From Sipunculus nudus (taxonomy: Eukaryota; Annelida; Sipuncula; Golfingiida; Sipunculidae): 64,000 nt of DNA. A program made the translations under genes and the position numbers. Position 1 is the stretch's first letter; the number at the start of each line of letters is the position of its first letter. The notes beneath the pieces are model-generated. The model was not told the origin of the DNA. It did no database searches and saw only the letters and a list, made by a program, of their open reading frames with translations. The stretch lies in assembly GCA_026874595.1 (NCBI GenBank), contig CM049313.1, positions 80,034,659-80,098,658 on the forward strand. The letters run 5' to 3'. Below, in pieces: positions 12,821 to 52,162 of this stretch.

Positions 12821-12867
12821 GCTTGCCGGAAATCTTCGATTTCTGCAAGCAGGTTGGTCAGTCGCGG

Positions 12868-14702: not shown

Positions 14703-14914
14703 GCTTGCCGGAAATCTTCGATTTCGGCAAGCATGTTCGTCAGTTGCGTATGTCTGTTTGTCTGTTTGTCTGTTTGTTTGTTTGTTTGTTTGTTTGTTTG
14801 TTTGTTTGTCACGACTCTCCAGGTCACATTTTTGCATCAATCAACTTGAAACTTACAGGCTTGATTGATAAACCGATTTCTAGGTGCCCTATTGTTTTTG
14901 GTCAACATTGCTCC

Positions 14915-14934
14915 AAGGTCAAGGTTCAAGGTCA
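14915..14934 (+). promoter_or_regulatory. paired AGGTCA half-sites in L leader
   Basis: AAGGTCA at 14915-14921 and TCAAGGTCA at 14926-14934, the second being the extended FTZ-F1/ERR-type half-site. Present at the same place in all L, S and M units. Confidence 0.35.
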
Positions 14935-15062
14935 CGACAAGTATGGTTAACGGTTTTTGCACTATAACTTTGCCATAAATAGGCGTATCCACTTCTGCAA
15001 TAGCTAATTTTTTTCGTCATCACCTGGCCTTTCTTCTGACATGTAGCTTACTTAAATTTGCC

Positions 15063-15076
15063 GTTACCATGGTTAC
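15063..15076 (-). promoter_or_regulatory. RFX X-box-like motif
   Basis: On the - strand GTAACCATGGTAAC fits the X-box consensus GTNRCC-N(0-3)-RGYAAC at every defined base. Further copies in the first units: 15805-15818, 17074-17087, 17528-17541, 18363-18376 and 18819-18832. The + strand reading fits with one mismatch. Confidence 0.35.
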
Positions 15077-15201
15077 ATTTTTTGGGCAAAAATCATGGGA
15101 TTTCGTGATATTTTTCAAATTTGCAGCAATCGTACTGATTCTGAGATATTTTATGTAACACAAGAATATCTCGAAATTGTTTTTTCAGATTTTGGAAATG
15201 G

Positions 15202-15214
15202 CCGCCAGGGGGCG
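15202..15214 (+). promoter_or_regulatory. CTCF-like core motif in L, site 1
   Basis: CCGCCAGGGGGCG, in the first core monomer of L. It recurs at the same phase in every L unit. Confidence 0.42.
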
Positions 15215-15657
15215 TTGCAGATGAAAAAACATGAAAATTTGTTTTGGTGCTATACCTCCAGAACTATTAAACATTGGGCTATTTCCATCACAGCACCTTC
15301 AACTGGGGTCCATGGGCTTATTTTTGCGAATAGGTGCCAAAGTGCGCTATTGCCAGATTTCTCTATTTTTGGGGTAAAACTTTTGAATTTTGAAAATATG
15401 CAGTTTTCAGCTTCTAACTCTGTCAGTTTTTATGCTGGAGAGGTCAATTTTTTTGCATCTTGTAGCCCTTGGTGAGTTCTCGGTGATCCACTCAAAAATC
15501 TTGCAAAATCTCGCACCGTTTCTCGTCAAACGAGAGTCTTCGAGATTTCATTAAATATGACCTACAGGTTGCATTTTTTTAACAATGGCTTTGAAAGTGA
15601 TATATTTTGTGTTATTTATAAATATCTCGAAATCAGTTTTTCATTTTTTGGAAATAG

Positions 15658-15670
15658 CCACCAGGGGGCG
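15658..15670 (+). promoter_or_regulatory. CTCF-like core motif in L, site 2
   Basis: CCACCAGGGGGCG is identical to the central 13 bases of the textbook vertebrate CTCF motif and lies 456 bp after site 1 in the same orientation. CTCF is conserved in bilaterians, so binding is plausible but untested. Confidence 0.48.
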
Positions 15671-15979
15671 TGGTAGCTGAAACACTGTAACATATCATTT
15701 TTCTGCAATATCTAAAATAATTTTAAACATGGCACAATTTTTATCGTTGTATCTTAAACTAGGAACTTTGGCTTATTCCTCCGCACATGTAGCTTTGTGC
15801 TGCCGTTACCATGGTTACCAAATCTGTGGGTTAAACTTGACGATCTGAAAATATGCAGTTTTTGGCTTCTATCTCGGTTAATATTTATGTTTCAAGGGTC
15901 TAGTTTTTTGCATAAGGCTGCTTCCCCTTGGTTCTAAGTCATTCAATTGCAAGTCTCGTCAAATTTCGCTCGGTTTATC

Positions 15980-16745
15980 GTCAAACGAGAAAAAACGAGA
16001 TTTCACGGAAATGCTTATAACTCGGCGACTTTTACAGCTATACAAGTCTAGTTTTCGGCATTTCATAACATATGACCAGCTTGACACGCCAGAAAAGAAA
16101 TCAGGCCAAATCTCGCACCATATCTCTTCAAGCGAGAAAAAAACGAGATATCATGGAAATGCTTATAACTAGGCGACTTTTACAGCTACTCAGGTCTAGT
16201 TTTTGGCATTTGGTAACATTTGGCCAACTTGACATAGTAAAACTGCGATACTTGGCGAAATCCCGCACTATATCTGGTCAAATGTGGAAAAACGAGATTT
16301 CACAGAAATGAATATAAGTCGGCGACTTTCACGGCTAGACAGGTCTAGTTTTTGGTATTCATTAACATTTGGACGGCTTGACATGACAAACCTGCAAGAC
16401 TGGCCAAATCTCGCACCATATCTCGTCAAACGATAAAAAGGAGATTTTACAGAAATGCTAATAACTCGGCGACTTTTACAGCTAGACAGATGTAGTTTTC
16501 GCCATTTCATAACATTTAGAGAGTTTGATATGACAAATCTACAAGACTGGCCAAATCCTGCACCATATCTCGTCAAACGAGAAAACACGAGAGTACACGG
16601 AAATGCTTATAACTCGGCGACTTTTACAGCTAGACGGATCTAGTTTTCGCCATTTCGTAACGTTTGGCCGTCTTGACATAATAAAACTGCTCGTCTTGCC
16701 AAATCTCGTACTATATCTCTTCAAGCGAGAAAAAAACATGATTTC
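15980..16745 (+). repeat. 148 bp subrepeats within L
   Basis: GGCGACTTTxACxGCT landmarks at 16024, 16172, 16321, 16468 and 16616 give spacings of 147-149 bp. Each subrepeat contains AAATCTCGCACCATA, the hairpin TCTCGT-CAA-ACGAGA or a decayed form, CGAGATTTCA and TCTAGTTTTxGCATT. Subrepeats within one unit differ clearly from each other, while the same subrepeat is near identical between units. The 148 bp expansion therefore predates the amplification of L. Confidence 0.88.
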
Positions 16746-17380
16746 ACGTTTTCATGATTCCATTTCCGGCAAGCGCGTGACCTCTGGTCATCTTGTTTGT
16801 TTGTTTGTTTGTTTGTTTGTCACGACTCTCCAGGTCACATTTTTGCATCAATCAACTTGAAACTTACAGGCTTGATTGATAAACCGATTTCTAGGTGCCC
16901 TATTGTTTTTGGTCAACATTGCTCCAAGGTCAAGGTTCAAGGTCACGACAAGTATGGTTAACGGTTTTTGCACTATAACTTCGCCATAAATAGGCTTATC
17001 CACTTCTGCAATAGCTAATTTTTTTCGTCATCACCTGCCCTTACTTTTGACATGTAGCTTACTTAAATTTGCCGTTACCATGGTTACATTTTTTGGGCAA
17101 AAATCATGGAAATTGGAAATAACACGACCATTTTTTGTAACTTTGTCAATTTTTAAGCTACAGACGTCTGGTTTTGGTCATTATGTACCTTATAGGCAGC
17201 TTGACATGATAAAACTAAAAGTCTCGCCAAATCTCGCACCATTTCTTGCCAAACGAGAGTTTCCGAGATTTCATTAAATATGACCTACAGGCCGCATTTT
17301 TTTAACAGTGGCTTTGAAATTGATATATTTTCTGTCATTTATAAATATCTCGAAATCAATTTTTCATTTTTGGGAAATAG

Positions 17381-17393
17381 CCACCAGGGGGCG
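17381..17393 (+). promoter_or_regulatory. CTCF-like core motif in S
   Basis: CCACCAGGGGGCG followed by TGG. One per S unit, with the same sequence as site 2 of L. Confidence 0.48.
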
Positions 17394-17774
17394 TGGTACA
17401 TGAAACACTGTAACATATCATTTTTCTGCAATATCTCAAAAAATATTAAACGTGACACCATTTTTTTTGTGGTATCTGAAACTAGGAACATTGGCTTATT
17501 GCTCCGCACATGTAGCTTTGTACTGCCGTTACCATGGTTACCAAATTTTGGGGTAAAACGTGACAACTTGAAAATACGAAGTTTACCTGCTTCTATCTCT
17601 GTTGATATTTGCCATAGAAAGGTCTGGTTTTCGGCGTTAGACAGCATCCCTCTAGTTCTAAGCCGTTCAATCGCAAGTCTCGTCATATCTCGCACCGTTT
17701 CTCGTGAAACGAGAACACGTGACCATTCAAAGAAATGCCTATAATTCTGTCATTTTTCACGCTACAGACACATG

Positions 17775-18000
17775 GTTTGCAGCGCTGGATAGCGGCTGAC
17801 ACTCGCAGTCACATTCAGGGGTCACGTTGTTAGTCTCGTCAAATCTCGCGCCGTTTTTCGCCATACCACGAAGACACTCGCCGTCGCCGCAAGTGGCGGC
17901 AGGGGCCTTACGGTGGGCGGCCGGCGTGTGCAGCGGTCCGTGACGGCCTCTCCGGGCCCCATCTATTATCATACATGTTGGAGGCACAGTCACAACTTTA
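17775..18000 (-). other. GC-rich segment, possible captured host fragment
   Basis: About 220 bp of GC-rich, high-complexity sequence in an otherwise AT-rich element, holding the hairpin GCCGC-AAGTG-GCGGC. It joins the end of the S or M core to the next unit's 5' hairpin. On the - strand it lies in an open frame (17757-18140, 127 codons) whose non-microsatellite part is cysteine-containing (TCGDGEC, then ECDCEC). I do not recognise a domain, and the frame borrows its start from microsatellite, so I do not call a gene. Gene-fragment capture is known for Helitrons. Other copies: every S and M end, for example 19066-19291, 22366-22591, 23657-23882, 26957-27182 and 30257-30482. Confidence 0.55.
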
Positions 18001-18002
18001 TT

Positions 18003-19293
18003 GCTTGCCGGAAATCTTCGATTTCGGCAAGCATGTTCGTCACCCGCGTATGTCTGTTTGTCTGTTTGTCTGTTTGTTTGTTTGTTTGTTTGTTTGTTTG
18101 TTTGTTTGTCACGACTCTCCAGGTCACATTTTTGCATCAATCAACTTGAAACTTACAGGCTTGATTGATAAACCGATTTCTAGGTGCCCTATTGTTTTTG
18201 GTCAACATTGCTCCAAGGTCAAGGTTCAAGGTCACGACAAGTATGGTTAACGGTTTTTGCACTATAACTTTGCCATAAATAGGCGTATCCACTTCTGCAA
18301 TAGCTAATTTTTTTCGTCATCACCTGGCCTTTCTTCTGACATGTAGCTTACTTAAATTTGCCGTTACCATGGTTACATTTTTTTGGGCAAAAATCATGGA
18401 AATTGGAAATAACACGACCATTTTTTGTAACTTTGTCAATTTTTAAGCTACAGACGTCTGGTTTTGGTCATTATGTACCTTATAGGCAGCTTGACATGAT
18501 AAAACTAAAAGTCTCGCCAAATCTCGCACCATTTCTTGCCAAACGAGAGTTTCCGAGATTTCATTAAATATGACCTACAGGCCGCATTTTTTTAACAGTG
18601 GCTTTGAAATTGATATATTTTCTGTCATTTATAAATATCTCGAAATCAATTTTTCATTTTTGGGAAATAGCCACCAGGGGGCGTGGTACATGAAACACTG
18701 TAACATATCATTTTTCTGCAATATCTCAAAAAATATTAAACGTGACACCATTTTTTTTTGTGGTATCTGAAACTAGGAACATTGGCTTATTGCTCCGCAC
18801 ATGTAGCTTTGTACTGCCGTTACCATGGTTACCAAATTTTGGGGTAAAACGTGACAACTTGAAAATACGAAGTTTACCTGCTTCTATCTCTGTTGATATT
18901 TGCCATAGAAAGGTCTGGTTTTCGGCGTTAGACAGCATCCCTCTAGTTCTAAGCCGTTCAATCGCAAGTCTCGTCATATCTCGCACCGTTTCTCGTGAAA
19001 CGAGAACACGTGACCATTCAAAGAAATGCCTATAATTCTGTCATTTTTCACGCTACAGACACATGGTTTGCAGCGCTGGATAGCGGCTGACACTCGCAGT
19101 CACATTCAGGGGTCACATTGTTAGTCTCGTCAAATCTCGCGCCGTTTTTCGCCATACCACGAAGACACTCGCCGTCGCCGCAAGTGGCGGCAGGGGCCTT
19201 ACGGTGGGCGGCCGGCGTGTGCAGCGGTCCGTGACGGCCTCTCCGGGCCCCATCTATTATCATACATGTTGGAGGCACAGTCACAACTTTATT
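18003..19293 (+). mobile_element. array unit type M (prototype, 1291 bp), L/S mosaic
   Basis: The 5' part (hairpin, microsatellite and leader with TTTGCC, AGGCGTATCC, CCTTTCTTCTGAC) matches L. From about 18341-18399 onward it matches S, including the GC-rich end. Two homopolymer differences from S (7 against 6 T near 18380, and 9 against 8 T near 18750) account for the two-base longer unit spacing. It carries one CTCF-like motif at 18671-18683. Recombination between L and S leaders in the shared CATGGTTAC/ATCATGG region is the simplest origin. Other copies: 22594-23884 and 30485-31359 (cut by the gap) on +, and eight on -. Confidence 0.8.
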
Positions 19294-22200
19294 GCTTGCC
19301 GGAAATCTTCGATTTCGGCAAGCATGTTCGTCACCCGCGTATGTCTGTTTGTCTGTTTGTCTGTTTGTTTGTTTGTTTGTTTGTTTGTTTGTTTGTTTGT
19401 CACGACTCTCCAGGTCACATTTTTGCATCAATCAACTTGAAACTTACAGGCTTGATTGATAAACCGATTTCTAGGTGCCCTATTGTTTTTGGTCAACATT
19501 GCTCCAAGGTCAAGGTTCAAGGTCACGACAAGTATGGTTAACGGTTTTTGCACTATAACTTTGCCATAAATAGGCGTATCCACTTCTGCAATAGCTAATT
19601 TTTTTCGTCATCACCTGGCCTTTCTTCTGACATGTAGCTTACTTAAATTTGCCGTTACCATGGTTACATTTTTTGGGCAAAAATCATGGGATTTCGTGAT
19701 ATTTTTCAAATTTGCAGCAATCGTACTGATTCTGAGATATTTTATGTAACACAAGAATATCTCGAAATTGTTTTTTCAGATTTTGGAAATGGCCGCCAGG
19801 GGGCGTTGCAGATGAAAAAACATGAAAATTTGTTTTGGTGCTATACCTCCAGAACTATTAAACATTGGGCTATTTCCATCACAGCACCTTCAACTGGGGT
19901 CCATGGGCTTATTTTTGCGAATAGGTGCCAAAGTGCGCTATTGCCAGATTTCTCTATTTTTGGGGTAAAACTTTTGAATTTTGAAAATATGCAGTTTTCA
20001 GCTTCTAACTCTGTCAGTTTTTATGCTGGAGAGGTCAATTTTTTTGCATCTTGTAGCCCTTGGTGAGTTCTCGGTGATCCACTCAAAAATCTTGCAAAAT
20101 CTCGCACCGTTTCTCGTCAAACGAGAGTCTTCGAGATTTCATTAAATATGACCTACAGGTTGCATTTTTTTAACAATGGCTTTGAAAGTGATATATTTTG
20201 TGTTATTTATAAATATCTCGAAATCAGTTTTTCATTTTTTGGAAATAGCCACCAGGGGGCGTGGTAGCTGAAACACTGTAACATATCATTTTTCTGCAAT
20301 ATCTAAAATAATTTTAAACATGGCACAATTTTTATCGTTGTATCTTAAACTAGGAACTTTGGCTTATTCCTCCGCACATGTAGCTTTGTGCTGCCGTTAC
20401 CATGGTTACCAAATCTGTGGGTTAAACTTGACGATCTGAAAATATGCAGTTTTTGGCTTCTATCTCGGTTAATATTTATGTTTCAAGGGTCTAGTTTTTT
20501 GCATAAGGCTGCTTCCCCTTGGTTCTAAGTCATTCAATTGCAAGTCTCGTCAAATTTCGCTCGGTTTATCGTCAAACGAGAAAAAACGAGATTTCACGGA
20601 AATGCTTATAACTCGGCGACTTTTACAGCTATACAAGTCTAGTTTTCGGCATTTCATAACATATGACCAGCTTGACACGCCAGAAAAGAAATCAGGCCAA
20701 ATCTCGCACCATATCTCTTCAAGCGAGAAAAAAACGAGATATCATGGAAATGCTTATAACTAGGCGACTTTTACAGCTACTCAGGTCTAGTTTTTGGCAT
20801 TTGGTAACATTTGGCCAACTTGACATAGTAAAACTGCGATACTTGGCGAAATCCCGCACTATATCTGGTCAAATGTGGAAAAACGAGATTTCACAGAAAT
20901 GAATATAAGTCGGCGACTTTCACGGCTAGACAGGTCTAGTTTTTGGCATTCATTAACATTTGGACGGCTTGACATGACAAACCTGCAAGACTGGCCAAAT
21001 CTCGCACCATATCTCGTCAAACGATAAAAAGGAGATTTTACAGAAATGCTAATAACTCGGCGACTTTTACAGCTAGACAGATGTAGTTTTCGCCATTTCA
21101 TAACATTTAGAGAGTTTGATATGACAAATCTACAAGACTGGCCAAATCCTGCACCATATCTCGTCAAACGAGAAAACACGAGAGTACACGGAAATGCTTA
21201 TAACTCGGCGACTTTTACAGCTAGACGGATCTAGTTTTCGCCATTTCGTAACGTTTGGCCGTCTTGACATAATAAAACTGCTCGTCTTGCCAAATCTCGT
21301 ACTATATCTCTTCAAGCGAGAAAAAAACATGATTTCACGTTTTCATGATTCCATTTCCGGCAAGCGCGTGACCTCTGGTCATCTTGTTTGTTTGTTTGTT
21401 TGTTTGTTTGTCACGACTCTCCAGGTCACATTTTTGCATCAATCAACTTGAAACTTACAGGCTTGATTGATAAACCGATTTCTAGGTGCCCTATTGTTTT
21501 TGGTCAACATTGCTCCAAGGTCAAGGTTCAAGGTCACGACAAGTATGGTTAACGGTTTTTGCACTATAACTTCGCCATAAATAGGCTTATCCACTTCTGC
21601 AATAGCTAATTTTTTTCGTCATCACCTGCCCTTACTTTTGACATGTAGCTTACTTAAATTTGCCGTTACCATGGTTACATTTTTTGGGCAAAAATCATGG
21701 AAATTGGAAATAACACGACCATTTTTTGTAACTTTGTCAATTTTTAAGCTACAGACGTCTGGTTTTGGTCATTATGTACCTTATAGGCAGCTTGACATGA
21801 TAAAACTAAAAGTCTCGCCAAATCTCGCACCATTTCTTGCCAAACGAGAGTTTCCGAGATTTCATTAAATATGACCTACAGGCCGCATTTTTTTAACAGT
21901 GGCTTTGAAATTGATATATTTTCTGTCATTTATAAATATCTCGAAATCAATTTTTCATTTTTGGGAAATAGCCACCAGGGGGCGTGGTACATGAAACACT
22001 GTAACATATCATTTTTCTGCAATATCTCAAAAAATATTAAACGTGACACCATTTTTTTTGTGGTATCTGAAACTAGGAACATTGGCTTATTGCTCCGCAC
22101 ATGTAGCTTTGTACTGCCGTTACCATGGTTACCAAATTTTGGGGTAAAACGTGACAACTTGAAAATACGAAGTTTACCTGCTTCTATCTCTGTTGATATT

Positions 22201-23884
22201 TGCCATAGAAAGGTCTGGTTTTCGGCGTTAGACAGCATCCCTCTAGTTCTAAGCCGTTCAATCGCAAGTCTCGTCATATCTCGCACCGTTTCTCGTGAAA
22301 CGAGAACACGTGACCATTCAAAGAAATGCCTATAATTCTGTCATTTTTCACGCTACAGACACATGGTTTGCAGCGCTGGATAGCGGCTGACACTCGCAGT
22401 CACATTCAGGGGTCACATTGTTAGTCTCGTCAAATCTCGCGCCGTTTTTCGCCATACCACGAAGACACTCGCCGTCGCCGCAAGTGGCGGCAGGGGCCTT
22501 ACGGTGGGCGGCCGGCGTGTGCAGCGGTCCGTGACGGCCTCTCCGGGCCCCATCTATTATCATACATGTTGGAGGCACAGTCACAACTTTATTGCTTGCC
22601 GGAAATCTTCGATTTCGGCAAGCATGTTCGTCACCCGCGTATGTCTGTTTGTCTGTTTGTCTGTTTGTTTGTTTGTTTGTTTGTTTGTTTGTTTGTTTGT
22701 CACGACTCTCCAGGTCACATTTTTGCATCAATCAACTTGAAACTTACAGGCTTGATTGATAAACCGATTTCTAGGTGCCCTATTGTTTTTGGTCAACATT
22801 GCTCCAAGGTCAAGGTTCAAGGTCACGACAAGTATGGTTAACGGTTTTTGCACTATAACTTTGCCATAAATAGGCGTATCCACTTCTGCAATAGCTAATT
22901 TTTTTCGTCATCACCTGGCCTTTCTTCTGACATGTAGCTTACTTAAATTTGCCGTTACCATGGTTACATTTTTTTGGGCAAAAATCATGGAAATTGGAAA
23001 TAACACGACCATTTTTTGTAACTTTGTCAATTTTTAAGCTACAGACGTCTGGTTTTGGTCATTATGTACCTTATAGGCAGCTTGACATGATAAAACTAAA
23101 AGTCTCGCCAAATCTCGCACCATTTCTTGCCAAACGAGAGTTTCCGAGATTTCATTAAATATGACCTACAGGCCGCATTTTTTTAACAGTGGCTTTGAAA
23201 TTGATATATTTTCTGTCATTTATAAATATCTCGAAATCAATTTTTCATTTTTGGGAAATAGCCACCAGGGGGCGTGGTACATGAAACACTGTAACATATC
23301 ATTTTTCTGCAATATCTCAAAAAATATTAAACGTGACACCATTTTTTTTTGTGGTATCTGAAACTAGGAACATTGGCTTATTGCTCCGCACATGTAGCTT
23401 TGTACTGCCGTTACCATGGTTACCAAATTTTGGGGTAAAACGTGACAACTTGAAAATACGAAGTTTACCTGCTTCTATCTCTGTTGATATTTGCCATAGA
23501 AAGGTCTGGTTTTCGGCGTTAGACAGCATCCCTCTAGTTCTAAGCCGTTCAATCGCAAGTCTCGTCATATCTCGCACCGTTTCTCGTGAAACGAGAACAC
23601 GTGACCATTCAAAGAAATGCCTATAATTCTGTCATTTTTCACGCTACAGACACATGGTTTGCAGCGCTGGATAGCGGCTGACACTCGCAGTCACATTCAG
23701 GGGTCACATTGTTAGTCTCGTCAAATCTCGCGCCGTTTTTCGCCATACCACGAAGACACTCGCCGTCGCCGCAAGTGGCGGCAGGGGCCTTACGGTGGGC
23801 GGCCGGCGTGTGCAGCGGTCCGTGACGGCCTCTCCGGGCCCCATCTATTATCATACATGTTGGAGGCACAGTCACAACTTTATT
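19294..23884 (+). repeat. left array trimer 2 (L S M)
   Basis: L 19294-21386, S 21387-22593, M 22594-23884. Nearly identical to trimer 1, without its private bases at 16356 and 17826. Confidence 0.95.
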
Positions 23885-26800
23885 GCTTGCCGGAAATCTT
23901 CGATTTCGGCAAGCATGTTCGTCACCCGCGTATGTCTGTTTGTCTGTTTGTCTGTTTGTTTGTTTGTTTGTTTGTTTGTTTGTTTGTTTGTCACGACTCT
24001 CCAGGTCACATTTTTGCATCAATCAACTTGAAACTTACAGGCTTGATTGATAAACCGATTTCTAGGTGCCCTATTGTTTTTGGTCAACATTGCTCCAAGG
24101 TCAAGGTTCAAGGTCACGACAAGTATGGTTAACGGTTTTTGCACTATAACTTTGCCATAAATAGGCGTATCCACTTCTGCAATAGCTAATTTTTTTCGTC
24201 ATCACCTGGCCTTTCTTCTGACATGTAGCTTACTTAAATTTGCCGTTACCATGGTTACATTTTTTGGGCAAAAATCATGGGATTTCGTGATATTTTTCAA
24301 ATTTGCAGCAATCGTACTGATTCTGAGATATTTTATGTAACACAAGAATATCTCGAAATTGTTTTTTCAGATTTTGGAAATGGCCGCCAGGGGGCGTTGC
24401 AGATGAAAAAACATGAAAATTTGTTTTGGTGCTATACCTCCAGAACTATTAAACATTGGGCTATTTCCATCACAGCACCTTCAACTGGGGTCCATGGGCT
24501 TATTTTTGCGAATAGGTGCCAAAGTGCGCTATTGCCAGATTTCTCTATTTTTGGGGTAAAACTTTTGAATTTTGAAAATATGCAGTTTTCAGCTTCTAAC
24601 TCTGTCAGTTTTTATGCTGGAGAGGTCAATTTTTTTGCATCTTGTAGCCCTTGGTGAGTTCTCGGTGATCCACTCAAAAATCTTGCAAAATCTCGCACCG
24701 TTTCTCGTCAAACGAGAGTCTTCGAGATTTCATTAAATATGACCTACAGGTTGCATTTTTTTAACAATGGCTTTGAAAGTGATATATTTTGTGTTATTTA
24801 TAAATATCTCGAAATCAGTTTTTCATTTTTTGGAAATAGCCACCAGGGGGCGTGGTAGCTGAAACACTGTAACATATCATTTTTCTGCAATATCTAAAAT
24901 AATTTTAAACATGGCACAATTTTTATCGTTGTATCTTAAACTAGGAACTTTGGCTTATTCCTCCGCACATGTAGCTTTGTGCTGCCGTTACCATGGTTAC
25001 CAAATCTGTGGGTTAAACTTGACGATCTGAAAATATGCAGTTTTTGGCTTCTATCTCGGTTAATATTTATGTTTCAAGGGTCTAGTTTTTTGCATAAGGC
25101 TGCTTCCCCTTGGTTCTAAGTCATTCAATTGCAAGTCTCGTCAAATTTCGCTCGGTTTATCGTCAAACGAGAAAAAACGAGATTTCACGGAAATGCTTAT
25201 AACTCGGCGACTTTTACAGCTATACAAGTCTAGTTTTCGGCATTTCATAACATATGACCAGCTTGACACGCCAGAAAAGAAATCAGGCCAAATCTCGCAC
25301 CATATCTCTTCAAGCGAGAAAAAAACGAGATATCATGGAAATGCTTATAACTAGGCGACTTTTACAGCTACTCAGGTCTAGTTTTTGGCATTTGGTAACA
25401 TTTGGCCAACTTGACATAGTAAAACTGCGATACTTGGCGAAATCCCGCACTATATCTGGTCAAATGTGGAAAAACGAGATTTCACAGAAATGAATATAAG
25501 TCGGCGACTTTCACGGCTAGACAGGTCTAGTTTTTGGCATTCATTAACATTTGGACGGCTTGACATGACAAACCTGCAAGACTGGCCAAATCTCGCACCA
25601 TATCTCGTCAAACGATAAAAAGGAGATTTTACAGAAATGCTAATAACTCGGCGACTTTTACAGCTAGACAGATGTAGTTTTCGCCATTTCATAACATTTA
25701 GAGAGTTTGATATGACAAATCTACAAGACTGGCCAAATCCTGCACCATATCTCGTCAAACGAGAAAACACGAGAGTACACGGAAATGCTTATAACTCGGC
25801 GACTTTTACAGCTAGACGGATCTAGTTTTCGCCATTTCGTAACGTTTGGCCGTCTTGACATAATAAAACTGCTCGTCTTGCCAAATCTCGTACTATATCT
25901 CTTCAAGCGAGAAAAAAACATGATTTCACGTTTTCATGATTCCATTTCCGGCAAGCGCGTGACCTCTGGTCATCTTGTTTGTTTGTTTGTTTGTTTGTTT
26001 GTCACGACTCTCCAGGTCACATTTTTGCATCAATCAACTTGAAACTTACAGGCTTGATTGATAAACCGATTTCTAGGTGCCCTATTGTTTTTGGTCAACA
26101 TTGCTCCAAGGTCAAGGTTCAAGGTCACGACAAGTATGGTTAACGGTTTTTGCACTATAACTTCGCCATAAATAGGCTTATCCACTTCTGCAATAGCTAA
26201 TTTTTTTCGTCATCACCTGCCCTTACTTTTGACATGTAGCTTACTTAAATTTGCCGTTACCATGGTTACATTTTTTGGGCAAAAATCATGGAAATTGGAA
26301 ATAACACGACCATTTTTTGTAACTTTGTCAATTTTTAAGCTACAGACGTCTGGTTTTGGTCATTATGTACCTTATAGGCAGCTTGACATGATAAAACTAA
26401 AAGTCTCGCCAAATCTCGCACCATTTCTTGCCAAACGAGAGTTTCCGAGATTTCATTAAATATGACCTACAGGCCGCATTTTTTTAACAGTGGCTTTGAA
26501 ATTGATATATTTTCTGTCATTTATAAATATCTCGAAATCAATTTTTCATTTTTGGGAAATAGCCACCAGGGGGCGTGGTACATGAAACACTGTAACATAT
26601 CATTTTTCTGCAATATCTCAAAAAATATTAAACGTGACACCATTTTTTTTGTGGTATCTGAAACTAGGAACATTGGCTTATTGCTCCGCACATGTAGCTT
26701 TGTACTGCCGTTACCATGGTTACCAAATTTTGGGGTAAAACGTGACAACTTGAAAATACGAAGTTTACCTGCTTCTATCTCTGTTGATATTTGCCATAGA

Positions 26801-27184
26801 AAGGTCTGGTTTTCGGCGTTAGACAGCATCCCTCTAGTTCTAAGCCGTTCAATCGCAAGTCTCGTCATATCTCGCACCGTTTCTCGTGAAACGAGAACAC
26901 GTGACCATTCAAAGAAATGCCTATAATTCTGTCATTTTTCACGCTACAGACACATGGTTTGCAGCGCTGGATAGCGGCTGACACTCGCAGTCACATTCAG
27001 GGGTCACATTGTTAGTCTCGTCAAATCTCGCGCCGTTTTTCGCCATACCACGAAGACACTCGCCGTCGCCGCAAGTGGCGGCAGGGGCCTTACGGTGGGC
27101 GGCCGGCGTGTGCAGCGGTCCGTGACGGCCTCTCCGGGCCCCATCTATTATCATACATGTTGGAGGCACAGTCACAACTTTATT
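23885..27184 (+). repeat. left array dimer (L S)
   Basis: L 23885-25977, S 25978-27184. The M unit is absent, giving a 3300 bp step to the next L. Confidence 0.95.
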
Positions 27185-34339: not shown

Positions 34340-34357
34340 CAGCGCCCCCTAGCAGCC
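34340..34357 (-). promoter_or_regulatory. CTCF-like motif, right element
   Basis: On the - strand GGCTGCTAGGGGGCGCTG, in the monomer nearest the leader. Confidence 0.42.
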
Positions 34358-35013: not shown

Positions 35014-35089
35014 AACAAACAGACAAACAGACAAACAGACATACGCGGGTGACGAACATGCTTGCCGAAATCGAAGATTTCCGGCAAGC
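35014..35089 (-). repeat. extra 5' terminal segment (hairpin plus microsatellite)
   Basis: Hairpin 35060-35089, the GTCACCCGCGTATG leader typical of array units, then TGTC/TTTG, followed on the - strand by the hairpin of the right element. It is the 5' end of an array unit whose body has been replaced by the 33004-35013 element. Confidence 0.8.
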
Positions 35090-38000: not shown

Positions 38001-39680
38001 GTCAAGCCGTCCAAATGTTAATGAATGCCAAAAACTAGACCTGTCTAGCCGTGAAAGTCGCCGACTTATATTCATTTCTGTGAAATCTCGTTTTTCCACA
38101 TTTGACCAGATATAGTGCGGGATTTCGCCAAGTATCGCAGTTTTACTATGTCAAGTTGGCCAAATGTTACCAAATGCCAAAAACTAGACCTGAGTAGCTG
38201 TAAAAGTCGCCTAGTTATAAGCATTTCCATGATATCTCGTTTTTTTCTCGCTTGAAGAGATATGGTGCGAGATTTGGCCTGATTTCTTTTCTGGCGTGTC
38301 AAGCTGGTCATATGTTATGAAATGCCGAAAACTAGACTTGTATAGCTGTAAAAGTCGCCGAGTTATAAGCATTTCCGTGAAATCTCGTTTTTTCTCGTTT
38401 GACGATAAACCGAGCGAAATTTGACGAGACTTGCAATTGAATGACTTAGAACCAAGGGGAAGCAGCCTTATGCAAAAAACTAGACCCTTGAAACATAAAT
38501 ATTAACCGAGATAGAAGCCAAAAACTGCATATTTTCAGATCGTCAAGTTTAACCCACAGATTTGGTAACCATGGTAACGGCAGCACAAAGCTACATGTGC
38601 GGAGGAATAAGCCAAAGTTCCTAGTTTAAGATACAACGATAAAAATTGTGCCATGTTTAAAATTATTTTAGATATTGCAGAAAAATGATATGTTACAGTG
38701 TTTCAGCTACCACGCCCCCTGGTGGCTATTTCCAAAAAATGAAAAACTGATTTCGAGATATTTATAAATAACACAAAATATATCACTTTCAAAGCCATTG
38801 TTAAAAAAATGCAACCTGTAGGTCATATTTAATGAAATCTCGAAGACTCTCGTTTGACGAGAAACGGTGCGAGATTTTGCAAGATTTTTGAGTGGATCAC
38901 CGAGAACTCACCAAGGGCTACAAGATGCAAAAAAATTGACCTCTCCAGCATAAAAACTGACAGAGTTAGAAGCTGAAAACTGCATATTTTCAAAATTCAA
39001 AAGTTTTACCCCAAAAATAGAGAAATCTGGCAATAGCGCACTTTGGCACCTATTCGCAAAAATAAGCCCATGGACCCCAGTTGAAGGTGCTGTGATGGAA
39101 ATAGCCCAATGTTTAATAGTTCTGGAGGTATAGCACCAAAACAAATTTTCATGTTTTTTCATCTGCAACGCCCCCTGGCGGCCATTTCCAAAATCTGAAA
39201 AAACAATTTCGAGATATTCTTGTGTTACATAAAATATCTCAGAATCAGTACGATTGCTGCAAATTTGAAAAATATCACGAAATCCCATGATTTTTGCCCA
39301 AAAAATGTAACCATGGTAACGGCAAATTTAAGTAAGCTACATGTCAGAAGAAAGGCCAGGTGATGACGAAAAAAATTAGCTATTGCAGAAGTGGATACGC
39401 CTATTTATGGCAAAGTTATAGTGCAAAAACCGTTAACCATACTTGTCGTGACCTTGAACCTTGACCTTGGAGCAATGTTGACCAAAAACAATAGGGCACC
39501 TAGAAATCGGTTTATCAATCAAGCCTGTAAGTTTCAAGTTGATTGATGCAAAAATGTGACCTGGAGAGTCGTGACAAACAAACAAACAAACAAACAAACA
39601 AACAAACAAACAGACAAACAGACAAACAGACATACGCGGGTGACGAACATGCTTGCCGAAATCGAAGATTTCCGGCAAGC
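35090..39680 (-). repeat. right array trimer (L S M)
   Basis: On the - strand: L 39680-37588, S 37587-36381, M 36380-35090. The M here carries the S-type base in GGCGAAGTTATAG (near 36110), unlike most other M units. Confidence 0.95.
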
Positions 39681-42600
39681 AATAAAGTTGTGACTGTGCC
39701 TCCAACATGTATGATAATAGATGGGGCCCGGAGAGGCCGTCACGGACCGCTGCACACGCCGGCCGCCCACCGTAAGGCCCCTGCCGCCACTTGCGGCGAC
39801 GGCGAGTGTCTTCGTGGTATGGCGAAAAACGGCGCGAGATTTGACGAGACTAACAATGTGACCCCTGAATGTGACTGCGAGTGTCAGCCGCTATCCAGCG
39901 CTGCAAACCATGTGTCTGTAGCGTGAAAAATGACAGAATTATAGGCATTTCTTTGAATGGTCACGTGTTCTCGTTTCACGAGAAACGGTGCGAGATATGA
40001 CGAGACTTGCGATTGAACGGCTTAGAACTAGAGGGATGCTGTCTAACGCCGAAAACCAGACCTTTCTATGGCAAATATCAACAGAGATAGAAGCAGGTAA
40101 ACTTCGTATTTTCAAGTTGTCACGTTTTACCCCAAAATTTGGTAACCATGGTAACGGCAGTACAAAGCTACATGTGCGGAGCAATAAGCCAATGTTCCTA
40201 GTTTCAGATACCACAAAAAAAATGGTGTCACGTTTAATATTTTTTGAGATATTGCAGAAAAATGATATGTTACAGTGTTTCATGTACCACGCCCCCTGGT
40301 GGCTATTTCCCAAAAATGAAAAATTGATTTCGAGATATTTATAAATGACAGAAAATATATCAATTTCAAAGCCACTGTTAAAAAAATGCGGCCTGTAGGT
40401 CATATTTAATGAAATCTCGGAAACTCTCGTTTGGCAAGAAATGGTGCGAGATTTGGCGAGACTTTTAGTTTTATCATGTCAAGCTGCCTATAAGGTACAT
40501 AATGACCAAAACCAGACGTCTGTAGCTTAAAAATTGACAAAGTTACAAAAAATGGTCGTGTTATTTCCAATTTCCATGATTTTTGCCCAAAAAATGTAAC
40601 CATGGTAACGGCAAATTTAAGTAAGCTACATGTCAAAAGTAAGGGCAGGTGATGACGAAAAAAATTAGCTATTGCAGAAGTGGATAAGCCTATTTATGGC
40701 GAAGTTATAGTGCAAAAACCGTTAACCATACTTGTCGTGACCTTGAACCTTGACCTTGGAGCAATGTTGACCAAAAACAATAGGGCACCTAGAAATCGGT
40801 TTATCAATCAAGCCTGTAAGTTTCAAGTTGATTGATGCAAAAATGTGACCTGGAGAGTCGTGACAAACAAACAAACAAACAAACAAACAAGATGACCAGA
40901 GGTCACGCGCTTGCCGGAAATGGAATCATGAAAACGTGAAATCATGTTTTTTTCTCGCTTGAAGAGATATAGTACGAGATTTGGCAAGACGAGCAGTTTT
41001 ATTATGTCAAGACGGCCAAACGTTACGAAATGGCGAAAACTAGATCCGTCTAGCTGTAAAAGTCGCCGAGTTATAAGCATTTCCGTGTACTCTCGTGTTT
41101 TCTCGTTTGACGAGATATGGTGCAGGATTTGGCCAGTCTTGTAGATTTGTCATATCAAACTCTCTAAATGTTATGAAATGGCGAAAACTACATCTGTCTA
41201 GCTGTAAAAGTCGCCGAGTTATTAGCATTTCTGTAAAATCTCCTTTTTATCGTTTGACGAGATATGGTGCGAGATTTGGCCAGTCTTGCAGGTTTGTCAT
41301 GTCAAGCCGTCCAAATGTTAATGAATGCCAAAAACTAGACCTGTCTAGCCGTGAAAGTCGCCGACTTATATTCATTTCTGTGAAATCTCGTTTTTCCACA
41401 TTTGACCAGATATAGTGCGGGATTTCGCCAAGTATCGCAGTTTTACTATGTCAAGTTGGCCAAATGTTACCAAATGCCAAAAACTAGACCTGAGTAGCTG
41501 TAAAAGTCGCCTAGTTATAAGCATTTCCATGATATCTCGTTTTTTTCTCGCTTGAAGAGATATGGTGCGAGATTTGGCCTGATTTCTTTTCTGGCGTGTC
41601 AAGCTGGTCATATGTTATGAAATGCCGAAAACTAGACTTGTATAGCTGTAAAAGTCGCCGAGTTATAAGCATTTCCGTGAAATCTCGTTTTTTCTCGTTT
41701 GACGATAAACCGAGCGAAATTTGACGAGACTTGCAATTGAATGACTTAGAACCAAGGGGAAGCAGCCTTATGCAAAAAACTAGACCCTTGAAACATAAAT
41801 ATTAACCGAGATAGAAGCCAAAAACTGCATATTTTCAGATCGTCAAGTTTAACCCACAGATTTGGTAACCATGGTAACGGCAGCACAAAGCTACATGTGC
41901 GGAGGAATAAGCCAAAGTTCCTAGTTTAAGATACAACGATAAAAATTGTGCCATGTTTAAAATTATTTTAGATATTGCAGAAAAATGATATGTTACAGTG
42001 TTTCAGCTACCACGCCCCCTGGTGGCTATTTCCAAAAAATGAAAAACTGATTTCGAGATATTTATAAATAACACAAAATATATCACTTTCAAAGCCATTG
42101 TTAAAAAAATGCAACCTGTAGGTCATATTTAATGAAATCTCGAAGACTCTCGTTTGACGAGAAACGGTGCGAGATTTTGCAAGATTTTTGAGTGGATCAC
42201 CGAGAACTCACCAAGGGCTACAAGATGCAAAAAAATTGACCTCTCCAGCATAAAAACTGACAGAGTTAGAAGCTGAAAACTGCATATTTTCAAAATTCAA
42301 AAGTTTTACCCCAAAAATAGAGAAATCTGGCAATAGCGCACTTTGGCACCTATTCGCAAAAATAAGCCCATGGACCCCAGTTGAAGGTGCTGTGATGGAA
42401 ATAGCCCAATGTTTAATAGTTCTGGAGGTATAGCACCAAAACAAATTTTCATGTTTTTTCATCTGCAACGCCCCCTGGCGGCCATTTCCAAAATCTGAAA
42501 AAACAATTTCGAGATATTCTTGTGTTACATAAAATATCTCAGAATCAGTACGATTGCTGCAAATTTGAAAAATATCACGAAATCCCATGATTTTTGCCCA

Positions 42601-42980
42601 AAAAATGTAACCATGGTAACGGCAAATTTAAGTAAGCTACATGTCAGAAGAAAGGCCAGGTGATGACGAAAAAAATTAGCTATTGCAGAAGTGGATACGC
42701 CTATTTATGGCAAAGTTATAGTGCAAAAACCGTTAACCATACTTGTCGTGACCTTGAACCTTGACCTTGGAGCAATGTTGACCAAAAACAATAGGGCACC
42801 TAGAAATCGGTTTATCAATCAAGCCTGTAAGTTTCAAGTTGATTGATGCAAAAATGTGACCTGGAGAGTCGTGACAAACAAACAAACAAACAAACAAACA
42901 AACAAACAAACAGACAAACAGACAAACAGACATACGCGGGTGACGAACATGCTTGCCGAAATCGAAGATTTCCGGCAAGC
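39681..42980 (-). repeat. right array dimer (L S)
   Basis: L 42980-40888, S 40887-39681. It matches the position of the dimer at 23885-27184 in the left array. Confidence 0.95.
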
Positions 42981-45900
42981 AATAAAGTTGTGACTGTGCC
43001 TCCAACATGTATGATAATAGATGGGGCCCGGAGAGGCCGTCACGGACCGCTGCACACGCCGGCCGCCCACCGTAAGGCCCCTGCCGCCACTTGCGGCGAC
43101 GGCGAGTGTCTTCGTGGTATGGCGAAAAACGGCGCGAGATTTGACGAGACTAACAATGTGACCCCTGAATGTGACTGCGAGTGTCAGCCGCTATCCAGCG
43201 CTGCAAACCATGTGTCTGTAGCGTGAAAAATGACAGAATTATAGGCATTTCTTTGAATGGTCACGTGTTCTCGTTTCACGAGAAACGGTGCGAGATATGA
43301 CGAGACTTGCGATTGAACGGCTTAGAACTAGAGGGATGCTGTCTAACGCCGAAAACCAGACCTTTCTATGGCAAATATCAACAGAGATAGAAGCAGGTAA
43401 ACTTCGTATTTTCAAGTTGTCACGTTTTACCCCAAAATTTGGTAACCATGGTAACGGCAGTACAAAGCTACATGTGCGGAGCAATAAGCCAATGTTCCTA
43501 GTTTCAGATACCACAAAAAAAAATGGTGTCACGTTTAATATTTTTTGAGATATTGCAGAAAAATGATATGTTACAGTGTTTCATGTACCACGCCCCCTGG
43601 TGGCTATTTCCCAAAAATGAAAAATTGATTTCGAGATATTTATAAATGACAGAAAATATATCAATTTCAAAGCCACTGTTAAAAAAATGCGGCCTGTAGG
43701 TCATATTTAATGAAATCTCGGAAACTCTCGTTTGGCAAGAAATGGTGCGAGATTTGGCGAGACTTTTAGTTTTATCATGTCAAGCTGCCTATAAGGTACA
43801 TAATGACCAAAACCAGACGTCTGTAGCTTAAAAATTGACAAAGTTACAAAAAATGGTCGTGTTATTTCCAATTTCCATGATTTTTGCCCAAAAAAATGTA
43901 ACCATGGTAACGGCAAATTTAAGTAAGCTACATGTCAGAAGAAAGGCCAGGTGATGGCGAAAAAAATTAGCTATTGCAGAAGTGGATACGCCTATTTATG
44001 GCAAAGTTATAGTGCAAAAACCGTTAACCATACTTGTCGTGACCTTGAACCTTGACCTTGGAGCAATGTTGACCAAAAACAATAGGGCACCTAGAAATCG
44101 GTTTATCAATCAAGCCTGTAAGTTTCAAGTTGATTGATGCAAAAATGTGACCTGGAGAGTCGTGACAAACAAACAAACAAACAAACAAACAAACAAACAA
44201 ACAGACAAACAGACAAACAGACATACGCGGGTGACGAACATGCTTGCCGAAATCGAAGATTTCCGGCAAGCAATAAAGTTGTGACTGTGCCTCCAACATG
44301 TATGATAATAGATGGGGCCCGGAGAGGCCGTCACGGACCGCTGCACACGCCGGCCGCCCACCGTAAGGCCCCTGCCGCCACTTGCGGCGACGGCGAGTGT
44401 CTTCGTGGTATGGCGAAAAACGGCGCGAGATTTGACGAGACTAACAATGTGACCCCTGAATGTGACTGCGAGTGTCAGCCGCTATCCAGCGCTGCAAACC
44501 ATGTGTCTGTAGCGTGAAAAATGACAGAATTATAGGCATTTCTTTGAATGGTCACGTGTTCTCGTTTCACGAGAAACGGTGCGAGATATGACGAGACTTG
44601 CGATTGAACGGCTTAGAACTAGAGGGATGCTGTCTAACGCCGAAAACCAGACCTTTCTATGGCAAATATCAACAGAGATAGAAGCAGGTAAACTTCGTAT
44701 TTTCAAGTTGTCACGTTTTACCCCAAAATTTGGTAACCATGGTAACGGCAGTACAAAGCTACATGTGCGGAGCAATAAGCCAATGTTCCTAGTTTCAGAT
44801 ACCACAAAAAAAATGGTGTCACGTTTAATATTTTTTGAGATATTGCAGAAAAATGATATGTTACAGTGTTTCATGTACCACGCCCCCTGGTGGCTATTTC
44901 CCAAAAATGAAAAATTGATTTCGAGATATTTATAAATGACAGAAAATATATCAATTTCAAAGCCACTGTTAAAAAAATGCGGCCTGTAGGTCATATTTAA
45001 TGAAATCTCGGAAACTCTCGTTTGGCAAGAAATGGTGCGAGATTTGGCGAGACTTTTAGTTTTATCATGTCAAGCTGCCTATAAGGTACATAATGACCAA
45101 AACCAGACGTCTGTAGCTTAAAAATTGACAAAGTTACAAAAAATGGTCGTGTTATTTCCAATTTCCATGATTTTTGCCCAAAAAATGTAACCATGGTAAC
45201 GGCAAATTTAAGTAAGCTACATGTCAAAAGTAAGGGCAGGTGATGACGAAAAAAATTAGCTATTGCAGAAGTGGATAAGCCTATTTATGGCGAAGTTATA
45301 GTGCAAAAACCGTTAACCATACTTGTCGTGACCTTGAACCTTGACCTTGGAGCAATGTTGACCAAAAACAATAGGGCACCTAGAAATCGGTTTATCAATC
45401 AAGCCTGTAAGTTTCAAGTTGATTGATGCAAAAATGTGACCTGGAGAGTCGTGACAAACAAACAAACAAACAAACAAACAAGATGACCAGAGGTCACGCG
45501 CTTGCCGGAAATGGAATCATGAAAACGTGAAATCATGTTTTTTTCTCGCTTGAAGAGATATAGTACGAGATTTGGCAAGACGAGCAGTTTTATTATGTCA
45601 AGACGGCCAAACGTTACGAAATGGCGAAAACTAGATCCGTCTAGCTGTAAAAGTCGCCGAGTTATAAGCATTTCCGTGTACTCTCGTGTTTTCTCGTTTG
45701 ACGAGATATGGTGCAGGATTTGGCCAGTCTTGTAGATTTGTCATATCAAACTCTCTAAATGTTATGAAATGGCGAAAACTACATCTGTCTAGCTGTAAAA
45801 GTCGCCGAGTTATTAGCATTTCTGTAAAATCTCCTTTTTATCGTTTGACGAGATATGGTGCGAGATTTGGCCAGTCTTGCAGGTTTGTCATGTCAAGCCG

Positions 45901-47571: not shown

Positions 47572-50500
47572 AATAAAGTTGTGACTGTGCCTCCAACATG
47601 TATGATAATAGATGGGGCCCGGAGAGGCCGTCACGGACCGCTGCACACGCCGGCCGCCCACCGTAAGGCCCCTGCCGCCACTTGCGGCGACGGCGAGTGT
47701 CTTCGTGGTATGGCGAAAAACGGCGCGAGATTTGACGAGACTAACAATGTGACCCCTGAATGTGACTGCGAGTGTCAGCCGCTATCCAGCGCTGCAAACC
47801 ATGTGTCTGTAGCGTGAAAAATGACAGAATTATAGGCATTTCTTTGAATGGTCACGTGTTCTCGTTTCACGAGAAACGGTGCGAGATATGACGAGACTTG
47901 CGATTGAACGGCTTAGAACTAGAGGGATGCTGTCTAACGCCGAAAACCAGACCTTTCTATGGCAAATATCAACAGAGATAGAAGCAGGTAAACTTCGTAT
48001 TTTCAAGTTGTCACGTTTTACCCCAAAATTTGGTAACCATGGTAACGGCAGTACAAAGCTACATGTGCGGAGCAATAAGCCAATGTTCCTAGTTTCAGAT
48101 ACCACAAAAAAAAATGGTGTCACGTTTAATATTTTTTGAGATATTGCAGAAAAATGATATGTTACAGTGTTTCATGTACCACGCCCCCTGGTGGCTATTT
48201 CCCAAAAATGAAAAATTGATTTCGAGATATTTATAAATGACAGAAAATATATCAATTTCAAAGCCACTGTTAAAAAAATGCGGCCTGTAGGTCATATTTA
48301 ATGAAATCTCGGAAACTCTCGTTTGGCAAGAAATGGTGCGAGATTTGGCGAGACTTTTAGTTTTATCATGTCAAGCTGCCTATAAGGTACATAATGACCA
48401 AAACCAGACGTCTGTAGCTTAAAAATTGACAAAGTTACAAAAAATGGTCGTGTTATTTCCAATTTCCATGATTTTTGCCCAAAAAAATGTAACCATGGTA
48501 ACGGCAAATTTAAGTAAGCTACATGTCAGAAGAAAGGCCAGGTGATGGCGAAAAAAATTAGCTATTGCAGAAGTGGATACGCCTATTTATGGCAAAGTTA
48601 TAGTGCAAAAACCGTTAACCATACTTGTCGTGACCTTGAACCTTGACCTTGGAGCAATGTTGACCAAAAACAATAGGGCACCTAGAAATCGGTTTATCAA
48701 TCAAGCCTGTAAGTTTCAAGTTGATTGATGCAAAAATGTGACCTGGAGAGTCGTGACAAACAAACAAACAAACAAACAAACAAACAAACAAACAGACAAA
48801 CAGACAAACAGACATACGCGGGTGACGAACATGCTTGCCGAAATCGAAGATTTCCGGCAAGCAATAAAGTTGTGACTGTGCCTCCAACATGTATGATAAT
48901 AGATGGGGCCCGGAGAGGCCGTCACGGACCGCTGCACACGCCGGCCGCCCACCGTAAGGCCCCTGCCGCCACTTGCGGCGACGGCGAGTGTCTTCGTGGT
49001 ATGGCGAAAAACGGCGCGAGATTTGACGAGACTAACAATGTGACCCCTGAATGTGACTGCGAGTGTCAGCCGCTATCCAGCGCTGCAAACCATGTGTCTG
49101 TAGCGTGAAAAATGACAGAATTATAGGCATTTCTTTGAATGGTCACGTGTTCTCGTTTCACGAGAAACGGTGCGAGATATGACGAGACTTGCGATTGAAC
49201 GGCTTAGAACTAGAGGGATGCTGTCTAACGCCGAAAACCAGACCTTTCTATGGCAAATATCAACAGAGATAGAAGCAGGTAAACTTCGTATTTTCAAGTT
49301 GTCACGTTTTACCCCAAAATTTGGTAACCATGGTAACGGCAGTACAAAGCTACATGTGCGGAGCAATAAGCCAATGTTCCTAGTTTCAGATACCACAAAA
49401 AAAATGGTGTCACGTTTAATATTTTTTGAGATATTGCAGAAAAATGATATGTTACAGTGTTTCATGTACCACGCCCCCTGGTGGCTATTTCCCAAAAATG
49501 AAAAATTGATTTCGAGATATTTATAAATGACAGAAAATATATCAATTTCAAAGCCACTGTTAAAAAAATGCGGCCTGTAGGTCATATTTAATGAAATCTC
49601 GGAAACTCTCGTTTGGCAAGAAATGGTGCGAGATTTGGCGAGACTTTTAGTTTTATCATGTCAAGCTGCCTATAAGGTACATAATGACCAAAACCAGACG
49701 TCTGTAGCTTAAAAATTGACAAAGTTACAAAAAATGGTCGTGTTATTTCCAATTTCCATGATTTTTGCCCAAAAAATGTAACCATGGTAACGGCAAATTT
49801 AAGTAAGCTACATGTCAAAAGTAAGGGCAGGTGATGACGAAAAAAATTAGCTATTGCAGAAGTGGATAAGCCTATTTATGGCGAAGTTATAGTGCAAAAA
49901 CCGTTAACCATACTTGTCGTGACCTTGAACCTTGACCTTGGAGCAATGTTGACCAAAAACAATAGGGCACCTAGAAATCGGTTTATCAATCAAGCCTGTA
50001 AGTTTCAAGTTGATTGATGCAAAAATGTGACCTGGAGAGTCGTGACAAACAAACAAACAAACAAACAAACAAGATGACCAGAGGTCACGCGCTTGCCGGA
50101 AATGGAATCATGAAAACGTGAAATCATGTTTTTTTCTCGCTTGAAGAGATATAGTACGAGATTTGGCAAGACGAGCAGTTTTATTATGTCAAGACGGCCA
50201 AACGTTACGAAATGGCGAAAACTAGATCCGTCTAGCTGTAAAAGTCGCCGAGTTATAAGCATTTCCGTGTACTCTCGTGTTTTCTCGTTTGACGAGATAT
50301 GGTGCAGGATTTGGCCAGTCTTGTAGATTTGTCATATCAAACTCTCTAAATGTTATGAAATGGCGAAAACTACATCTGTCTAGCTGTAAAAGTCGCCGAG
50401 TTATTAGCATTTCTGTAAAATCTCCTTTTTATCGTTTGACGAGATATGGTGCGAGATTTGGCCAGTCTTGCAGGTTTGTCATGTCAAGCCGTCCAAATGT

Positions 50501-52162
50501 TAATGAATGCCAAAAACTAGACCTGTCTAGCCGTGAAAGTCGCCGACTTATATTCATTTCTGTGAAATCTCGTTTTTCCACATTTGACCAGATATAGTGC
50601 GGGATTTCGCCAAGTATCGCAGTTTTACTATGTCAAGTTGGCCAAATGTTACCAAATGCCAAAAACTAGACCTGAGTAGCTGTAAAAGTCGCCTAGTTAT
50701 AAGCATTTCCATGATATCTCGTTTTTTTCTCGCTTGAAGAGATATGGTGCGAGATTTGGCCTGATTTCTTTTCTGGCGTGTCAAGCTGGTCATATGTTAT
50801 GAAATGCCGAAAACTAGACTTGTATAGCTGTAAAAGTCGCCGAGTTATAAGCATTTCCGTGAAATCTCGTTTTTTCTCGTTTGACGATAAACCGAGCGAA
50901 ATTTGACGAGACTTGCAATTGAATGACTTAGAACCAAGGGGAAGCAGCCTTATGCAAAAAACTAGACCCTTGAAACATAAATATTAACCGAGATAGAAGC
51001 CAAAAACTGCATATTTTCAGATCGTCAAGTTTAACCCACAGATTTGGTAACCATGGTAACGGCAGCACAAAGCTACATGTGCGGAGGAATAAGCCAAAGT
51101 TCCTAGTTTAAGATACAACGATAAAAATTGTGCCATGTTTAAAATTATTTTAGATATTGCAGAAAAATGATATGTTACAGTGTTTCAGCTACCACGCCCC
51201 CTGGTGGCTATTTCCAAAAAATGAAAAACTGATTTCGAGATATTTATAAATAACACAAAATATATCACTTTCAAAGCCATTGTTAAAAAAATGCAACCTG
51301 TAGGTCATATTTAATGAAATCTCGAAGACTCTCGTTTGACGAGAAACGGTGCGAGATTTTGCAAGATTTTTGAGTGGATCACCGAGAACTCACCAAGGGC
51401 TACAAGATGCAAAAAAATTGACCTCTCCAGCATAAAAACTGACAGAGTTAGAAGCTGAAAACTGCATATTTTCAAAATTCAAAAGTTTTACCCCAAAAAT
51501 AGAGAAATCTGGCAATAGCGCACTTTGGCACCTATTCGCAAAAATAAGCCCATGGACCCCAGTTGAAGGTGCTGTGATGGAAATAGCCCAATGTTTAATA
51601 GTTCTGGAGGTATAGCACCAAAACAAATTTTCATGTTTTTTCATCTGCAACGCCCCCTGGCGGCCATTTCCAAAATCTGAAAAAACAATTTCGAGATATT
51701 CTTGTGTTACATAAAATATCTCAGAATCAGTACGATTGCTGCAAATTTGAAAAATATCACGAAATCCCATGATTTTTGCCCAAAAAATGTAACCATGGTA
51801 ACGGCAAATTTAAGTAAGCTACATGTCAGAAGAAAGGCCAGGTGATGACGAAAAAAATTAGCTATTGCAGAAGTGGATACGCCTATTTATGGCAAAGTTA
51901 TAGTGCAAAAACCGTTAACCATACTTGTCGTGACCTTGAACCTTGACCTTGGAGCAATGTTGACCAAAAACAATAGGGCACCTAGAAATCGGTTTATCAA
52001 TCAAGCCTGTAAGTTTCAAGTTGATTGATGCAAAAATGTGACCTGGAGAGTCGTGACAAACAAACAAACAAACAAACAAACAAACAAACAAACAGACAAA
52101 CAGACAAACAGACATACGCGGGTGACGAACATGCTTGCCGAAATCGAAGATTTCCGGCAAGC
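47572..52162 (-). repeat. right array trimer (L S M)
   Basis: L 52162-50070, S 50069-48863, M 48862-47572. M shares the GATGGCG variant (near 48545) with the preceding trimer, so these two trimers are sister duplicates. Confidence 0.95.

Follow-up and report, generated by a model that had tools for sequence, protein, structure and literature searches.

An apparent palindrome of HINE-like element arrays at a scaffold gap in Sipunculus nudus: most likely an orientation error over a real array

In the genome assembly of Sipunculus nudus (GCA_026874595.1), two arrays of the same three repeated units, L, S and M, face one another across a 500-N scaffold join, and the locus raises the question of whether this mirror arrangement is a natural palindrome. 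We analysed it in a window of 64,000 nucleotides (the whole stretch of DNA under study; contig CM049313.1, C8:80034659-80098658), together with 60 kb of flanking DNA on the left and 170 kb on the right, and compared it against the genome of 1.43 Gb in 153 contigs. Coordinates below 1 or above 64000 continue the window numbering outward. The superarray locus lies about 0.8 Mb from the C8 sequence end. An earlier note on this DNA had offered three explanations, namely a real palindrome, two haplotypes scaffolded tail to tail, or a mis-oriented contig. The pattern of contigs, gaps and strands speaks for the last of these, and the second finds no support in the flanks. Judged from the sequence, the palindrome most probably stems from an error of orientation in the assembly, with the 98-kb contig at 31860-130007 placed backwards over a real array. 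The arrays themselves are real; their mirror arrangement is probably no natural palindrome.

Orientation of the elements within and between contigs

The join is the sole N run of the window. Across the extended region, 500-N gaps start at 31360, 130008, 169770 and 223691. They separate a left contig of at least 91 kb from a right contig of 98.1 kb (31860-130007), which has a gap at either end, and this is followed rightward by contigs of 39 kb, 53 kb and, from 224191, at least 9.8 kb. The right contig carries more arrays outward, up to 128.5 kb. To count element pieces, the best matches to L, S or M that do not overlap one another were kept at E <= 1e-20. By this measure the left contig has 15 pieces on the plus strand and none on the minus strand, the 98-kb contig none and 59, the 53-kb contig 39 and none, and the last contig none and three; the 39-kb contig has zero matches at the same threshold. 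Among the 115 neighbouring pairs formed by these 116 pieces there are three strand switches, and they are exactly the three pairs that cross a gap. Strand switches thus coincide with contig ends, and none is found inside a contig. Random placement would put all three on gap pairs once in 246,905, a figure that treats mutually copied pieces as independent, which they are not. The 5' modules of the elements, which occur in all but one of the four contigs with units, show the same pattern (9 plus, 37 minus and 9 plus), with none against the strand of its contig. Furthermore, every one of the 285 matches of at least 90% between the left and right contigs is inverted, as are all ten between the 98-kb and 53-kb contigs (90.0-96.7%, 0 direct).

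Genome-wide, loci were counted from the longer matches listed (42 of 59 and 79 of 260, 121 together), joined within 60 kb. Among the matches listed there are 28 loci, 14 of them multi-copy; 13 of these have a single orientation, and only the present locus is mixed. Another 41 matches, inspected by eye, give multi-copy loci on C25, C34, C47, C142, C1 (~66.7 Mb) and C8 (~80.8 Mb), each in a single orientation. A mis-oriented contig is the best supported explanation because the contig is short, has gaps at both ends, is uniform within itself and switches strand against its neighbours at gaps only, and because the 13 other loci are unmixed. Passages of PMC6719893 describe Hi-C scaffolding as error-prone in orientation for short contigs. 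The present case is alike in its short contig, its gaps on both sides and its confinement of strand switches to gaps. In at least one published assembly scaffolded with 3D-DNA, contigs are separated by 500 N, according to passages of PMC10421919; the present assembly may have been made in the same way.

We propose that the window crosses a HINE-like superarray spread over at least four contigs, whose elements in the cell would most likely lie head to tail in a single direction. Assembly would have broken at 31359, within near-identical units, and the 98.1-kb contig would then have been scaffolded backwards, so that a direct repeat of one array appears as a palindrome. The contig ends were compared as well. 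The left contig end fits several unit positions equally well, and the two ends of the right contig are alike at 94.6%, its first 2259 bases (31860-34118) matching the 4096-bp units at 113.5-130.0 kb, described below, at 94.6-94.7%. No join can therefore be fixed from the contig ends.

Several points weigh against a backwards contig as the whole explanation. Firstly, the last contig is also on the minus strand, so that flipping the 98-kb contig alone leaves a disagreement that calls for either another flip or a real inversion. Secondly, an assembly would likewise break at the midpoint of a genuine long palindrome, and gap-only switching is therefore not independent of a real inversion. Finally, the count of single-orientation loci draws on the longer of the matches listed, and the 60-kb joining rule matters: opposite-strand copies lie 162 kb apart on C2 (3.53-3.55 Mb, minus; 3.72 Mb, plus), 137 kb apart on C9 (0.26 Mb, minus; 0.39 Mb, plus) and 179 kb apart on C1 (66.7 Mb, minus; 66.9 Mb, plus). 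A wider rule would make these loci mixed.

Unit order, base-level likeness and rival explanations

Units were counted from the anchor CACGACTCTCC, which gives lengths of 2011 bases for L, 1289 for S and 1291 for M, and the anchors of the left array are spaced at these same three intervals. The left order, L S M L S M L S L S M, recurs in the right array when this is read on the minus strand from 52055 downward, just as the earlier note had described it, and the right array extends outward past the shared 11 units with M M L S M M. An ungapped alignment of 14697-31359 with 52168-35506 is 99.946% identical; four of its 9 differences over 16,663 bases fall in the 5' module ahead of the first unit and five within units. 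The accompanying claim that chance agreement is unlikely was overstated. Under a first-order model of unit succession, the simulated chance of an 11-unit match was 0.079 when a random left string was set against the right arrays as they stand and 0.055 when both strings were random, or about 0.06-0.08. The shared order is thus suggestive, not compelling, as evidence linking the two sides. The ending L S L S M is present three times (left array, 35-43 kb and 80-88 kb), and blocks have therefore been copied within the superarray. Long direct matches are found between 34561-45481 and 79897-90819 (99.15%) and between 57969-71737 and 69161-82926 (99.85%). In the history we propose, the shared order would stem from a 4591-bp LSM higher-order repeat with few allowed variations, together with recent block duplication.

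Units of each type were aligned in 12 rows drawn from both contigs; the M alignment includes the cut left unit and excludes the partial M and the copies of the 4096-bp array. Variation is slight, with one variable column in L, two in S and two in M. The 10 complete left units differ from their in-register right partners by 4 bases in total, against 3.86 expected for random pairing within type (the mean over all right-contig units of the type). On these 10 pairs the arms are no closer in register than array units generally, and in-register homology of the arms was rejected; the bases give no sign of the arm-to-arm register that the earlier note had implied. The 99.946% identity of the arms is the level of any two same-type units and is therefore weak as evidence for a palindrome.

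The individual bases to which that note had drawn attention mostly stand. Between 14 and 61 kb, GATGGCG is confined to 43953 and 48544, in two right M units, and two left M units face the only 2 of 12 M rows that have a private C. The inner M unit of the right array (34900-36273) does carry an S-type base, which is also present in the M units at 59229-60519 and 53347-54637. As for the bases reported as private to the left array, G at 17826 is in no other aligned S unit, but T at 16356 is common to the first left L unit and the L unit at 92081-94091, 28 kb past the window on the right contig. Four dispersed L copies (L029, L030, L032 and L033) have C at that position; the T is derived and connects the left head unit to 92081-94091.

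A real inverted duplication is the alternative that survives best, and we regard it as unlikely. Superarray arms of at least 16.7 kb would face one another, their centre lost in the gap and their sequences kept alike by exchange. The near-identity over 16,663 bases and the identical 11-unit order both speak for it, and long palindromes tend to break assemblies. Against this, the arms are as alike as any same-type unit pair, their bases lack in-register pairing, no inverted unit pair lies inside any contig of the region (116 pieces), and the other multi-copy loci are single-orientation in 13 of 13 cases among the matches listed. No contiguous sequence spans the array centre, and the gap itself does not disprove a palindrome. 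An inverted superarray of rolling-circle elements, with arms of this length running plus, minus, plus, minus over ~200 kb and units homogenised by arm exchange, is unlikely to about the same degree.

It is improbable that the 98-kb contig represents an unpurged second haplotype of this locus, or a duplicate contig of it, placed next to the primary copy during scaffolding. The near-identical units would fit such an origin, as would the derived T shared by the left head unit and 92081-94091, and the run of small contigs may be typical of unpurged or repeat-broken sequence. The flanks argue otherwise. None of the 285 left-right matches of at least 90% starts before 14600 on the left contig, lies outside the arrays there or falls in any of four right-hand stretches tested outside the arrays, and allelic flanks beyond the arrays were thus not found; allelic contigs, judged by flank match, are unsupported. 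The outer flanks indeed differ, as the earlier note had stated: the left contig before 14600 has no match of at least 90% to the right contig, and its flank fits diverged right units at 76-81%, inverted. For a 2-kb non-array piece of the right contig, the next best match is at 98% on C14 and no second copy lies near the locus, a weak test in that the piece is a dispersed repeat. Chance likeness between two stretches built from the same three unit types of a higher-order repeat, and otherwise not specially linked, can draw on the simulated match rates given above, but it accounts for the order alone, is compatible with the other readings rather than an alternative to them, and is barely credible as the explanation of the locus.

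Anatomy of the repeated element

The L, S and M arrays look like a known kind of sequence, tandem 3'-truncated HINE-like (non-autonomous Helentron) elements. From 5' to 3', L consists of the hairpin GCTTGCCGGAAATCTTCGATTTCGGCAAGC, a TGTC/TGTT microsatellite, a body with 148-bp repeats, ATTTCCGGCAAGC and, near the end, TGACC-TCT-GGTCA. The first of these folds with an 11-bp stem, a 5' sub-terminal inverted repeat with its complementary neighbour, and ATTTCCGGCAAGC is the reverse complement of the 5' repeat. Five exact copies of the 14-mer CATTTCCGGCAAGC occur on each strand of the window. The 3' module, a sub-terminal inverted repeat with a short palindrome after it, was found in all 12 L units and is absent from the 28 remaining units that were cut out, which comprise S, M and partial units. 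The 148-bp repeats of L run to 5.2 copies and, with the TGTC/TGTT runs, correspond to the central repeats and microsatellite of HINEs. The longest open reading frame of the window, leaving out frames that span the N gap, is 154 amino acids (no family search was made on it), in line with the absence of coding capacity in HINEs. Passages of PMC4067079 and PMC7492417, the latter on Cg_HINE of the Pacific oyster, set out the HINE/DINE-1 non-autonomous Helentron plan, and all of these features are shared with it: the 5' sub-terminal inverted repeat paired with a hairpin partner of its own, the tetranucleotide microsatellite, central tandem repeats, the 3' sub-terminal inverted repeat and the short palindrome after it, and no long open frame. 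The present elements differ from the plan in those passages in that L lies inside the microsatellite of other copies and in their 4.6-kb L-S-M higher-order repeat. The likeness is one of plan, and the way in which the element type recalls bivalve and other animal elements is resemblance only. Rfam gave no match at the gathering threshold in the window or in 104001-144000.

S and M match the first 289-290 bases of L at 98.3% and 99.7%, respectively, plus an 84% block, and have no 3' module; copies without a 3' end are the form reported for tandem rolling-circle copies. The junctions at 35014, 69161, 80351, 114968, 119064, 123160 and 127256 repeat one pattern: an M or S unit stops near base 1260 and S bases from 1177 follow. 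Six dispersed copies were fetched. L029, L030 and L032 begin directly after another 5' module and L031 directly after a 3' end, L033 has other sequence outside TTTG runs, and L034 was left unassigned. From these junctions it follows that L tends to sit within the microsatellite of its kin. HINEs insert at TT without target-site duplication; here the copies lie in TTTG runs, which mask the exact insertion ends. L is a full element and would have arisen nested in the TTTG microsatellite of another copy, and the arrays would have grown by rolling-circle tandem insertion and by unequal exchange in TTTG tracts.

A Helentron-type gene was also observed on the 98-kb contig at 104038-108693 (L019:38-4693). 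It is intact-looking and encodes 1551 amino acids with Helitron_like_N, PIF1 helicase and C-terminal endonuclease (Exo_endo_phos) domains. Its Rep region reads EFQARGSPHAH, with an S between G and P that passages of PMC4067079 give as diagnostic of Helentrons. Sites resembling the sub-terminal inverted repeats of the array (up to 2 mismatches) were found across 94-114 kb only at 94146, at the array edge, and none lies close around the gene. It is at most a candidate for mobilising the array elements.

Neighbouring sequence and implications

The features of the window are collected in Table 1.

Table 1. Coordinates of arrays, element modules and other repeats in the window
Feature	Position	Strand	Remarks
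41-bp satellite array	1-12578	.	left contig, running on left of window; Tandem Repeats Finder, 306.7 copies
Diverged unit(s) flanking left array	12805-14394	+	81% to 33414-35029, ~80% to 4096-bp units at 113.8-130.0 kb, both inverted
Two 84-bp 5' module copies (hairpin + TGTC/TGTT microsatellite)	14616-14786	+	head of left array
Left array (order in text)	14697-31359	+	last M cut by gap at 768/1291 bases
3' module example in L unit: 3' sub-terminal inverted repeat in CATTTCCGGCAAGC + TGACC-TCT-GGTCA palindrome	16760-16795	+	
5' module example: GCTTGCCGGAAAT hairpin, then (TGTC/TGTT)n	18003-18032	+	
500-N scaffold join	31360-31859	.	element orientation flips here
Partial M unit, 1111 bases, 100%	31860-32970	-	from first base of 98.1-kb contig onward
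Diverged unit(s), inner end of right array	33414-35029	-	
Right array, minus reading: M M L S M M L S M L S M L S L S M	35014-60519	-	final M = 1260 bases
365-bp tandem repeats	62805-64000	.	part of block 62232-65757

The 41-bp satellite lies close to the left array, and beside its edge (12687-12741) a long run of G gives way to a long run of C. On the right contig, the block of 365-bp repeats occurs twice (62232-65757 and 73422-76947), and it is inverted in the contig at 170270-223690. Further outward, 113549-130007 is a 4096-bp higher-order repeat of about four copies, each with a 1260-bp M unit at 99.9-100%. Two more highly uniform arrays related to L (81-83%) lie at 170270-181873 and ~206870-223690, with units of 1274 bp and 1288 bp; the second has relatives (97-99% over part of the unit) in the small unplaced contigs C25, C34, C37, C47 and C142.

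The 39-kb contig between two gaps, 130508-169769 (C8:80165166-80204427), is of another kind. Its G+C content is 51% against 39-40% in its neighbours, its CpG ratio is 1.02, and it is without array elements. It holds 82 stop-to-stop frames of at least 110 amino acids, compared with 14 in one shuffle, the longest being 1637 against 275 amino acids. One frame has Pkinase and YqaJ viral recombinase domains and one a C-type lectin domain; four of the six frames tested had no Pfam match. The contig resembles a fragment of a large DNA virus; it would be either endogenous or foreign sequence joined in during scaffolding.

Overall, a contig probably placed backwards over a real array carries a more general message. 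Apparent multi-10-kb palindromes at scaffold gaps risk being read as inversions or as palindromic gene-conversion systems, and a repeat orientation that stays constant inside each contig and changes at gaps alone provides a read-free check for backwards contigs. If the inversion were true, the locus would present arrays of a rolling-circle element homogenised across opposite orientations.

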